Shown here: positions 21,461 through 24,297 of the stretch, piece by piece | Numbering within the stretch: the stretch's first letter is position 1 | How the letters are laid out: each line of letters starts with the position of its first letter | Origin: Methylomagnum ishizawai | GTDB lineage: Bacteria > Pseudomonadota > Gammaproteobacteria > Methylococcales > Methylomonadaceae | Length of the DNA stretch: 64,000 nucleotides | Reading direction: 5' to 3' | Assembly: GCA_945861705.1 (NCBI GenBank) | Contig: CAMAVM010000002.1 | Coordinates: 1 to 64,000 of the forward strand | Translations under genes and position numbers: made by a program | Notes under the pieces: model-generated | Database searches by the model: none | Seen by the model: the letters and a program-made list of their open reading frames with translations, nothing else | What the model was told of the DNA's origin: nothing

Positions 21461-21655
21461 AACTCCCTCGTTGTTATTGATGTTAGCGCTTCGGACTGTT
21501 TGAATAATCATTGGTTCACTGTATGCTATAGCATAACCGAATTGTTGAAACTGTATACCCTGCTTAATCAAGCAATTACATGTTTAGTTCTATAATTAAG
21601 TCAACTATTTATGTAAAATGTTGTCTACTGTGTTTTTCTTAACTAGAAATAGCTT

Positions 21656-22480
21656 GTGCCTGATACCTTAAATAGACCAGATTATTTACCAGACTTCAAT
21701 AATCCTCCGTTAAATGAGGTTGTTTTAGGCGTTCAGTTTAGTCAACCCAACGGTTATCAACAAATTTTGGCTGGTAAGGTGTGGGATCTGTTTCGTGAGG
21801 ACTATCCGCTTGTTCAAGAACAGATGCCGCTTCAACCAACTTTCGAAGTCTTTGGATTGCCTTCGCAAGGTACAATTATTAATCACCTAAATTTTGGCGT
21901 TGGAAGTTTATTGCATAGCCGATATTGGTTTTTGAACAAGAATGGTGATGAATTAATCCAATTCCAGCAAAATAGGCTTTTGCACAATTGGCGTAAGATC
22001 GGCGACCAAGCTAATCAATATCCTCGGTTTGAGTCAATGATTCAACGATTCGAAGGGGAACTAAATAAATTTCAAAACTATGTTAATAGTTTAGAAACTC
22101 AAGAACTCCAGATTAACCAATGTGAAATAAGCTATATAAACCATATCGTAGGTATTAATGGAATTACAAACTTTTCAGATTGGCTGAATTTCATTAGCGA
22201 TGAGAAAATGATGTTAGATGATTTCAATTTACGCTTTAGTGAAGTTATAAACAATAATGATAATAAGCCAATTGGTCGATTAGTTTGTGAGACATCGTTA
22301 GGAATTACAAAAGAATCTAACTGTATGATATTGTGTACATTTACAGTTCGAGGTGCGCCCGAAAGCAACACTATTAATTCAGCAATTGAATTCATAAAAA
22401 AAGGACGTGATTTAATTGTTTGTCGATTTTCTGAGCTAACTACAGAAAAAGCGCATGAAAAATGGGGTAGGTTAAAATGA
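21656..22480 (+). CDS. TIGR04255-like protein, first gene of an uncharacterised three-gene cassette
   Basis: A 274-residue soluble protein beginning at GTG. The N-terminal block NNPPLNEVVLGVQFSQPNGY (about residues 15-34) is the pattern I associate with the sporadically distributed TIGR04255 family, whose function is unknown. The rest has IEVxISYINHI-like strands (LQINQCEISYINHIVGI) and a C-terminal KAHEKWGRLK. There is no catalytic motif or membrane segment. Its stop overlaps the next start (ATGA at 22477-22480). AT content is higher than in the flanking peptidase and cyoE genes, which suggests a recent arrival. Confidence 0.75.
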   Translation: MPDTLNRPDYLPDFNNPPLNEVVLGVQFSQPNGYQQILAGKVWDLFREDYPLVQEQMPLQPTFEVFGLPSQGTIINHLNFGVGSLLHSRYWFLNKNGDELIQFQQNRLLHNWRKIGDQANQYPRFESMIQRFEGELNKFQNYVNSLETQELQINQCEISYINHIVGINGITNFSDWLNFISDEKMMLDDFNLRFSEVINNNDNKPIGRLVCETSLGITKESNCMILCTFTVRGAPESNTINSAIEFIKKGRDLIVCRFSELTTEKAHEKWGRLK

Positions 22481-22947
22481 TTGCTTCCAACACGATCCAA
22501 TTTCCAAGTAAGGCTTCAAAGAAAATTGAGCCAAGCCCAAGAATTACACTGTCAGAAAAAAATAACGTATGGCAAGAAAAAACCATTAAGCGTCTTGAGG
22601 AACTTATTCGGCTAGAAATCGGATGGGATGGCTATCAAGGTATAGCAGTAAGCTTAGAAAATGTTCTATTTACTCTAAATATGCTTGAAAAAATATGTAA
22701 ATGGAACACTGAAGCCCCGCAAATCGTTCCAGGTTATTCGGGTGACCTTCAGGTCGAGTGGCATACATTAAATGGTGATTTAGAGTTGCATGTTGAAAAG
22801 CCAAATAAGGTTAATGCTTGGTTTTGGCACGTTAAGGACGACTCGGAAGGTGAAGAATTACAATTAAAAAATGATTTTTCCAAAGTTGCCGAATGGGTAA
22901 AAGCGATTACGGAGTCGCCAGTTGCCGCTGAATCCGCCGCCGCGTGA
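22477..22947 (+). CDS. Uncharacterised protein with GWDGY...VEWH pattern, second gene of the cassette
   Basis: A 156-residue soluble protein. Its core reads RLEIGWDGYQGIAVSLENVL (about residues 47-66), then PQIVPGYSGDLQVEWH and LELHVEKPNKVNAWFWH. I recall similar short proteins with a WDGY motif followed by a G-x-x-x-EWH strand as an unnamed family, but I cannot assign a function. It starts within the stop codon of the first gene and overlaps the third gene by 26 bases. The three are therefore translated together in fixed stoichiometric order. Confidence 0.7.
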   Translation: MIASNTIQFPSKASKKIEPSPRITLSEKNNVWQEKTIKRLEELIRLEIGWDGYQGIAVSLENVLFTLNMLEKICKWNTEAPQIVPGYSGDLQVEWHTLNGDLELHVEKPNKVNAWFWHVKDDSEGEELQLKNDFSKVAEWVKAITESPVAAESAAA

Positions 22948-23383
22948 TGCGAATGGGGTTGTCATTCCCCATGACCATGAAGGAATTCTGCCAAACGACG
23001 GAATAATTCGAAGGGCATCAAAGCAGCACGTTATTTTTGATCCGAAAATTGAGGGCAATCGTCTTTCTTCTTCACTGTTTGAGCCTTCGTCGGGACACAA
23101 TGGTGGATTATCTGTAGATTTACAGAGCCAAATAGAAGAAGCTGGTCTTATTGCTACAGATTTTGTAACGAACCCACCTTTTATAGGCTCAATTCGATTT
23201 ATTGCCTGCCAACTTCGAGAAGAAGGCTTCAAAGTCGGATACGATCCCATTTTAAATCAACCCAACCTTCAAGATAATCCTTACCACGGTGAAGTTTGGG
23301 GTAACTTTTCTAAGGCCAAAAAGAAAAGGTTGTTTCAACTTTGTAGCTGGTTTGTTCCTATTGAAAAGGTATCTATCCAGTAA
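22922..23383 (+). CDS. Uncharacterised protein, third gene of the cassette
   Basis: A 153-residue soluble protein, best start TTG at 22922 inside the end of the previous gene. It has a run GLSVDLQSQIEEAGL, a segment IRFIACQLREEGFKVGYDP, and DNPYHGEVWGNFSKAKKKRL near the C-terminus. This looks like a compact alpha/beta domain ending in a basic helix. I do not recognise a named family. The TTG start, 26-base overlap and tight packing argue for translational coupling. It ends 26 bases before cyoE, so read-through into cyoE-ybiB is possible. Confidence 0.65.
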   Translation: MPLNPPPRDANGVVIPHDHEGILPNDGIIRRASKQHVIFDPKIEGNRLSSSLFEPSSGHNGGLSVDLQSQIEEAGLIATDFVTNPPFIGSIRFIACQLREEGFKVGYDPILNQPNLQDNPYHGEVWGNFSKAKKKRLFQLCSWFVPIEKVSIQ

Positions 23384-23409
23384 AACTCTCGATACAATAC
23401 GCCAGTTTA

Positions 23410-24297
23410 ATGACAACCCAAACCACAACCATCCCCTCATCCTGGAAAAGCTACCTAGAACTCTGCAAACCCAACGTAGTGGCGGAAATGCTGTTTACGG
23501 CGGTGGTGGGCATGTTGTTGGCGGTTCCTGGGATGCCGCCGTTGGATAAGGTTGTTTACGGCATCGTCGGGATTGCCTTGGCGGCGGCTTCGGCGGCGGC
23601 AATTAATCACCTAATCGACCAAAAAATAGACGGCATCCTCAATCCTCATCGGCCTTTGCCCCAGCATTATCTGAAATCATCAGATGTCATTGCTTTTGCT
23701 GCGGTATTGGGTGTGACTTCGATGCTGGTGTTGATGTTGAAGGTCAATATGCTAACCGCCGTCCTCACTTTTGTGTCCTTATTCGGTTATGCGATTATTT
23801 ACACGCTTTGGCTTAAACGGGCTACCCCCCAAAACATCGTCATTGGTGGCGCTTTTGGCGCAACGCCGCCCCTGCTGGGTTGGTGTGCAATTTCCGGCGA
23901 AGTCCATCCCTATGCTTTGCTGCTGGTATTGATTATCTTCGTGTGGACACCACCGCATTTTTGGCCGTTGGCTATTGCACGGCAAGAAAAATATGCGTTG
24001 GTTAATATTCCCATGCTACCTGTTACCCATGGAGCGGAATTTACCCGTTTGCAGATATTGCTTTACGCCGTGTTGTTGCTCGTTGTCACCTTATTGCCGT
24101 ATTTGACGGGGATGAGCGGACTGATTTATTTGGTTTCTGCATTGCTGTTAGGGTTCGGATTTATCTACTTTGCCGTGTTGATGATGCGGAATAAAGATGC
24201 TAAAACTGCTATGAAAACATTTTGGTTTTCGATCATTTATATAACGCTTCTGTTCGCTGCGCTGTTAATCGACCATTATGTCCGACTGACCTTATGA
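23410..24297 (+). CDS. cyoE: Protohaem IX farnesyltransferase (haem O synthase)
   Basis: A 295-residue UbiA-family membrane prenyltransferase with eight to nine hydrophobic segments. The first Asp-rich motif is NHLIDQKIDGILNPHRPLP (about residues 66-84, N-x-x-x-D-x-x-x-D) and the second is near DxxVY-like loop 6-7, with FVWTPPHFWPLAIARQEKY (about residues 178-196) strongly diagnostic. It converts haem B to haem O for terminal oxidases. No cytochrome oxidase genes are adjacent. Its last bases form ATGA with the next start. Confidence 0.96.
   Translation: MTTQTTTIPSSWKSYLELCKPNVVAEMLFTAVVGMLLAVPGMPPLDKVVYGIVGIALAAASAAAINHLIDQKIDGILNPHRPLPQHYLKSSDVIAFAAVLGVTSMLVLMLKVNMLTAVLTFVSLFGYAIIYTLWLKRATPQNIVIGGAFGATPPLLGWCAISGEVHPYALLLVLIIFVWTPPHFWPLAIARQEKYALVNIPMLPVTHGAEFTRLQILLYAVLLLVVTLLPYLTGMSGLIYLVSALLLGFGFIYFAVLMMRNKDAKTAMKTFWFSIIYITLLFAALLIDHYVRLTL

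Follow-up and report, generated by a model that had tools for sequence, protein, structure and literature searches.

The window analysed here, a stretch of 64,000 nt from Methylomagnum ishizawai, carries three small overlapping genes, named A, B and C, between genes that we take, by eye, to encode M16 peptidases and cyoE. The question raised by this locus is whether the three genes constitute a genuine functional unit and, if they do, what kind of system they encode. The original prediction had regarded them as a sporadic, tightly coupled defence, toxin–antitoxin (TA) or stress module. Our results indicate that the cassette is a real, conserved and sporadically distributed unit, and that it is probably a TA-type module with a shared TIGR04255 component.

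Organization of the cassette

The three open reading frames were all found where they had been predicted, with the GTG, ATG and TTG starts and the overlaps described (Table 1), A and B sharing 4 bases (ATGA at 22477). As also anticipated, they are richer in AT than the genes around them, with GC contents of 0.354 (A), 0.406 (B) and 0.426 (C) versus 0.471 and 0.481 in the M16-peptidase-like genes and 0.481 in cyoE; in the 84-base gap 5' of A, the GC content was 0.25. The N-terminus of A aligned with that of the L036 protein, and the beginning of C (PL.PP.RD) was found again at the same overlap in relatives, which supports the annotated starts. Among 22 loci with an overlap of −20, −23 or −26, C began with TTG or GTG in 17, a count for which starts were chosen mechanically and which includes one near-duplicate pair. 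A non-ATG start of C inside B fits a toxin yield below that of the antitoxin. Scanning for promoters and terminators gave nothing above shuffled sequences.

Table 1. Features of the cassette in the window
Feature	Position	Strand	Start and length	Description
Gene A	21656..22480	+	GTG, 274 aa	TIGR04255 protein; first gene shared by all cassettes of this kind, proposed as an accessory (chaperone or sensor)
Gene B	22477..22947	+	ATG, 156 aa	WDG/EW-domain protein; proposed antitoxin, its N-terminal ~33 residues forming an uncharged tail
Gene C	22922..23383	+	TTG, 153 aa	Proposed toxin of ADP-ribosyltransferase fold; near-invariant R30, S64, P109 and H122
B/C overlap	22922..22947	+	26 nt, non-ATG start	Recurs in the close subfamily
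Insertion interval, M16-like gene to cyoE	21546..23433	.		Empty in 4/7 congeners, other inserts in the rest

Gene A encodes a TIGR04255 protein

The product of A scored 93 bits against TIGR04255 (curated cut-off, 30) and covered positions 2–252 of the 252-position model, which confirmed the family named in the original prediction. TIGR04255 was present in 30 of 398 genomes of the phylum and in 0 of 14 control genomes. When the AlphaFold2 model of A (pLDDT 92.6) was compared using VIA-align, domains of guanido kinases took the top rows, with Z as high as 9.4 and an rmsd of 4.4 for 200 residues. Despite these fold matches we do not favour a kinase reading of A, since just three of its arginines (R89, R113 and R208) exceeded 70% conservation. 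START/PYL-like rows from Foldseek were set aside, with E-values of at least 0.012 and TM-scores of at most 0.31 among the best 50 rows listed. No internal duplication was detected in A at the profile level, and sequence searches for solved relatives of A or C gave none that was credible.

Our first mechanistic guess, taken from TAC modules, was that A is a SecB homologue. This was dropped as homology and kept as an analogy: hhalign comparisons of whole A and of both its halves with 17 SecB proteins, chosen by similarity to one SecB protein, gave probabilities below 1%. SecB was also absent from the best 50 VIA-align rows for A, an absence that excludes nothing. Among 5.39 million open-access papers, TIGR04255 was named in none and PDC-M32 in one. 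No relatives were detected in phages by tblastn with A from the window, A from L012 or the M32B protein from L004, and viral contigs queried with A gave 41 pattern matches, of which 0 were confirmed.

Distribution and insertion site of the cassette

Scanning genome contigs with five A proteins yielded 64 loci, assigned by record title to Alpha-, Beta- and Gammaproteobacteria, Planctomycetota, Acidobacteria, Cyanobacteria, Actinobacteria and others. With iterated profiles, 99 loci contained a match to A, B or C (A-B-C in 51, A only in 35, A-C in six, A-B in three, B-C in two and C only in two); since A was mostly the bait, these proportions are not fractions of a random sample, and three near-duplicate pairs are among them. 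The complete cassette occurred in the same order in Pseudomonadota, Planctomycetota (e.g. L068, L073 and L083) and Actinomycetota (L005 and L097; a Mycobacterium plasmid), and the recurrence of the same three families in unrelated genomes was therefore observed as proposed. The idea of a tight three-gene unit held in that the trio recurs, but not in the sense of an exclusive one, as A stood alone in 35 of the 99 loci and B-C also occurred without A.

Among 151 genomes of the family, C was found in the window's own genome only, and in 151 genomes of the order B appeared elsewhere only as two PDC-M32A-type fusions (L003 and L004). The insertion site was compared in seven congeners, in which it was located through cyoE. 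The M16-like gene and cyoE were adjacent, with no gene between them, in four (L104, L105, L106 and L109); a DUF4279 gene was present at the site in L108/L150; and genes for the toxin ParE and for an ankyrin protein lay between the two in L149 (genome of L110). In L148 (genome of L107), an AAA_21 protein and RloB were encoded directly 5' of cyoE, and no M16 gene was found in the 4 kb at the start of that contig. Because the site is empty or otherwise filled in congeners, the cassette lies in a variable spot, and both the sporadic occurrence and the variable presence between the peptidase and cyoE genes that had been expected were borne out. Within the genus, the site is a small hotspot that is either empty or holds A-B-C, AAA_21 with RloB, ParE with ankyrin, or DUF4279.

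A location in defence islands, which had also been suggested, was not supported, as no enrichment was seen around A cassettes in a scan that covered 135 of the 207 neighbour proteins selected. The raw count was 21 PADLOC models matched at E≤1e-10, each by a single member; several were methyltransferase models, which possibly hit one and the same protein, and the Pfam families of the neighbours were scattered and mostly housekeeping (best 25 of 157 families listed). The housekeeping genes that flank the cassette in the window, together with the resemblance of A to guanido kinases, might point to a metabolic or housekeeping operon and not to a conflict module. We consider this highly improbable, given the sporadic presence of the cassette, the empty sites in congeners, the few arginines conserved in A and the toxin families encoded in sister operons, which are described below.

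A is constant while the genes behind it are exchanged

We refer to the middle gene of A-headed cassettes as X and to the third gene as Y. In this survey, ORFs and starts were picked mechanically, the 'X' of L082, L084 and L089 is really of the third-gene type, the window copies (L002, L023 and L038) were excluded from the locus tallies, and the near-duplicates L036/L050, L005/L097 and L026/L093 stayed counted. An ORF followed A in 92 of 95 loci and, in 87 of the 95, started between −30 and +10 nt relative to the stop codon of A, an arrangement whose tightness goes beyond chance; the commonest start was at −4, the exact ATGA overlap being frequent, not universal. At the profile threshold used, the middle ORFs fell into 22 clusters and the third ORFs, found in 87 loci, into 14, numbers that include a few artefacts of ORF picking. 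The C family accounted for 60 of the 87 third ORFs. A PIN domain was detected above the Pfam cut-off in the third gene of all four candidates tested (L069, L075, L079 and L086, from three clusters) and a MazF/PemK domain in that of L013 (1.1e-18, Pfam), so that sister cassettes carry known toxin families in third place, in agreement with the TA-like nature originally proposed.

A tree built from 84 A proteins implied at least 13 changes of Y type, and the result was the same when the Q and PIN clusters were lumped; the tree was a quick build with many weakly supported branches, L093 was left out, and the Y labels of L082, L084, L089, L019 and L037 were assigned by hand from sequence. This is most simply read as a constant A behind which TA pairs are exchanged. 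The new point is that TIGR04255 heads tight operons while the two downstream genes swap, the shared part being possibly a general control component.

Several Y families had no Pfam match, and the reading of Y as a toxin therefore holds for PIN and MazF only. By eye, a stretch resembling 'Q.CDL' or 'NTCDM' was recognized in Y of L071, L072, L076, L081, L091 and L092, of L012, L015, L024 and L028, and of L011, L014 and L021. These genes form three clusters, whose tested members (L081, L011 and L012) had no Pfam match, and their toxin position makes them candidate new toxin families. HEPN-like (L030) and papain/NlpC-like (L009 and L010) third genes were seen by eye only and Pfam gave no confirmation, and an aspartic-protease-like third gene (L094) stayed below the Pfam cut-off. 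The X cluster of L011, L014, L019, L021 and L037 showed, by eye, a helix-turn-helix, as expected for a DNA-binding antitoxin.

The first 30 residues of X differed from the body of the protein in charge (0.168 vs 0.234) and in serine/threonine content (0.226 vs 0.119). Compared by cluster, with eight loci left out (X absent, out of range or probably frameshifted), the tail was less charged than the body in 17 of 20 clusters (Wilcoxon p 0.001), and depletion of acidic residues alone was not significant (13 of 20, p 0.10). The motif [ST]x(0-2)A[FY] was present within the first 20 residues of 25 of 87 X proteins, as compared with 6.6 in shuffled sequences. Since it was concentrated in the B cluster (23 of 55 proteins inside, 2 of 32 outside), we regard it as a family feature and not as a general signal.

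B and C form a pair related to PDC-M32

No Pfam or NCBIfam model matched B above cut-off. B did match three PDC-M32A models of PADLOC in their C-terminal third (approximately positions 257–368 of 375, best E 3.3e-11), and only this part was matched, the N-terminal domain of PDC-M32A being absent from B. C gave no match at E≤1 in four family libraries, PADLOC included, and no toxin-family hit. Our first B and C profiles had been seeded with the PDC-M32 proteins of L003 and L004 as well as with cassette proteins; because of this circularity the profiles were rebuilt without PDC-M32 rows, and the link between C and M32B held. The C profile without M32B rows found all 11 M32B-type proteins tested from genomes and all four from plasmids (E 1.7e-12 to 4.7e-6), with 1.8e-12 for L004 and 1.9e-8 for L003, and the B profile built from A cassettes only found the upstream partners of M32B-type proteins in 15 of 15 cases (E 8e-16 to 8.5e-4). 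As judged by these profiles, C is homologous to PDC-M32B and B to the C-terminal domain of PDC-M32A. The cassette had been put forward as an undescribed system; since B belongs to the listed candidate PDC-M32, it is not wholly undescribed.

In a census of 398 genomes of the phylum, the C profile identified 20 places in 19 genomes, and a B domain lay directly upstream of C at all 20, consistent with the earlier impression that the second and third types recur together. A was present at 11 of these places. At the nine places without A, the PDC-M32A N-terminal domain was found in four (L116, L118, L119 and L130), L117 was cut by the contig end, and L113, L123 and L129 were shorter or different. 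At L124 (1875-3191), the B domain lies behind TPR-like repeats, recognized by eye, that replace the PDC-M32A N-terminal domain, and at L129 (2542-2958) a 138-aa protein without a match to the A profile or the PDC-M32A N-terminal domain, possibly another accessory, is encoded ahead of B-C. Six A-C loci from the A-baited set had a middle gene without a B-profile match at 1e-3, which indicates that C is not tied to B alone. The swapping of the downstream genes, together with the position of C behind B at 20 of 20 places, suggests that B-C is probably an antitoxin–toxin pair and A a common accessory.

The occurrence of B-C without A at 9 of the 20 places, and also on plasmids, would equally be expected if B-C were a plain type II TA pair and A a captured independent passenger or transcriptional regulator with no action on B. 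The fold matches of A, which are to guanido kinases and not to a chaperone, are compatible with such a passenger. However, A heads many different pairs (22 X and 14 Y clusters) in one tight arrangement, which makes the coupling of A to the pair look selected, and at five of the nine places without A (a sixth, L117, is truncated by its contig) B carries some other N-terminal region fused in front of it, which might stand in for A. We therefore judge an independent A to be unlikely.

The B-C pairs were found in TA or restriction surroundings, in the company of conflict genes. HsdS genes adjoined all four PDC-M32-type pairs tested (L116, L118, L119 and L130); HsdM upstream of such pairs was proposed by eye, and Pfam searches on short pieces confirmed HsdS only. 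Nucleotidyltransferase (MNT) genes adjoined L113 and L124, and HepT adjoined L113. On a Limnohabitans plasmid, RelE/ParE and VapBC genes surrounded the B-C pair, and a type I restriction subunit was encoded near the pair on a Sinomonas plasmid. C-like fragments, partial and unannotated, were also noticed on Mesorhizobium plasmids. PDC-M32A/B are also listed for a prophage in a study of Sinorhizobium prophages (PMC12429752).

The adjoining HsdS genes, the RloB gene that a congener carries at this site and the PADLOC candidate status of the relatives of B are features that a three-component anti-phage system without addiction might show, in which A would sense the invader, B would transduce the signal, and C, PIN or MazF would be interchangeable effectors behind a constant first gene. 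Against this, the neighbours of A cassettes are mostly housekeeping genes and the X genes of the PIN and MazF cassettes occupy the antitoxin position. The two readings also overlap, as a TAC module can itself act as a phage sensor (PMC11618068). A system of sensor and effectors devoid of addiction has, in our estimation, perhaps one chance in a few, and we continue with the TA-type reading.

Predicted fold and conserved residues of C

Structure prediction, which had been proposed as a means of examining the cassette, gave for C, as for A, a model of high pLDDT (96.4 for C). With the C model as query, Foldseek returned nothing at E≤0.001 from either the PDB or a viral library. VIA-align aligned 595 chains, of which 20 had a Z≥2, the best being KptA (Z 6.3, rmsd 2.8, 87 residues), a value in the ambiguous range of the tool, where Z below 8 may mean merely a common arrangement. 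The 18 entries listed at Z≥2 comprised KptA/Tpt1, AvrPphF, Tne2, Arr-2, a fungal NADase and RhsP2, all of which we take to be of the ADP-ribosyltransferase (ART) fold.

In 56 sequences, R30, S64, P109 and H122 of C were 95–98% conserved (R30 and S64 96%, H122 98%). Columns conserved at 60% or more contained no glutamate, and the classical R-S-E or H-Y-E triad was absent. In the predicted model, R30 and S64 are placed on strands at the candidate positions of ART motifs I and II, and H122 would replace the usual glutamate at the candidate third position. Comparison of C with eight KptA proteins using hhalign gave a probability of 0.3%, and no profile-level homology to RES was detected. The window's own genome contains two RES-domain matches of its own (G000:C9:15556-16026 and G000:C13:55961-56344). 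On the strength of the model, we consider it likely that C adopts an ART fold.

Proposed mechanism

The gene order, spacing, conservation, sporadic presence, swapping of partners, toxin families among the third genes and non-ATG starts of C lead us to favour a TA-type reading, which we hold with good confidence. That C is the toxin and B the antitoxin is likely as well. In such a module, C would be an ART-fold enzyme that uses or destroys NAD+ or ADP-ribosylates a target, and B its dedicated antitoxin. A would be a common accessory that works via the antitoxin and is produced just ahead of it; it might bind the uncharged, probably disordered N-terminal tail of B and in this way stabilize B or license it to hold C. 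If something such as a phage product were to titrate or alter A, B would fail, C would be freed and growth would stop. The toxicity of C, its neutralization by B and the action of A through the tail of B are all inferred.

A mobile three-component TA-type module in which A acts through antitoxin B is, in our view, the best explanation of the locus and a reasonably probable one. A role of A as a chaperone or sensor acting on B is a more tentative proposal, for which we would give nearly even odds, and A may instead sense or regulate without acting as a chaperone. More doubtful, while still worth stating, is the wider proposal that TIGR04255 represents a new class of dedicated TA accessory, unrelated to SecB, which stands before many unrelated pairs and recognizes an uncharged antitoxin tail, and that C represents a new family of ART-fold toxins whose active site is R-S-H.

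If TIGR04255 were a general controller of TA pairs, a sporadic family would acquire a function and there would be a second solution to the role that SecB plays in TAC modules. It would also provide a genomic handle for new toxins, namely the pair of genes that follows TIGR04255, and the third-gene families without a Pfam match would be candidates. The TIGR04255 accessory is the part most worth testing, and the cassettes allow direct tests of TA activation by phage products.

Comparison with known systems

PDC-M32, a phage defence candidate in PADLOC, resembles the cassette in that the C-terminal domain of M32A corresponds to B and M32B to C, in the same order and with tight spacing. It differs in that the N-terminal domain of M32A is missing from the window, where a separate TIGR04255 gene precedes the pair, and C itself reaches no PADLOC model at E≤1.

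As described in PMC5105189, the SecB chaperone of TAC modules holds a disordered extension of the antitoxin, and different TA families (HigBA, MqsRA and HicAB) can be addicted to SecB. In CmdTAC, the chaperone is displaced by a capsid protein of the phage, which releases a toxin that is an ADP-ribosyltransferase (PMC11618068). On paper, the logic of the window's cassette is the same, its accessory being unrelated to SecB by profile. Like these systems (M. tuberculosis HigBA-SecB and CmdTAC), the cassettes studied here consist of three small genes and combine a constant partner with varied TA pairs, in this case PIN, MazF and ART-fold, and both the CmdTAC toxin and, by prediction, C of the window belong to the ADP-ribosyltransferases or their fold. 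In contrast to TAC, A has no relation to SecB by profile, the genes are arranged as accessory-antitoxin-toxin, and the candidate tail is N-terminal in X, whereas the known chaperone-addiction extensions are C-terminal. The H-Y-[EDQ] triad reported for CmdT is likewise missing from C, in which R30, S64, P109 and H122 are near-invariant.

With KptA/Tpt1, Tne2, Arr and AvrPphF/HopF, C shares the predicted fold and the conserved arginine and serine at the candidate motif I and II positions; unlike KptA/Tpt1 and other ART-fold proteins, it has H122 in place of glutamate, no N-lobe and no profile similarity to KptA. Finally, sister TIGR04255 cassettes resemble VapBC and MazEF in having a PIN or MazF third gene behind a small gene, and they differ from them by the extra TIGR04255 gene ahead of the pair, the proposed toxin of the window being of a different predicted fold.
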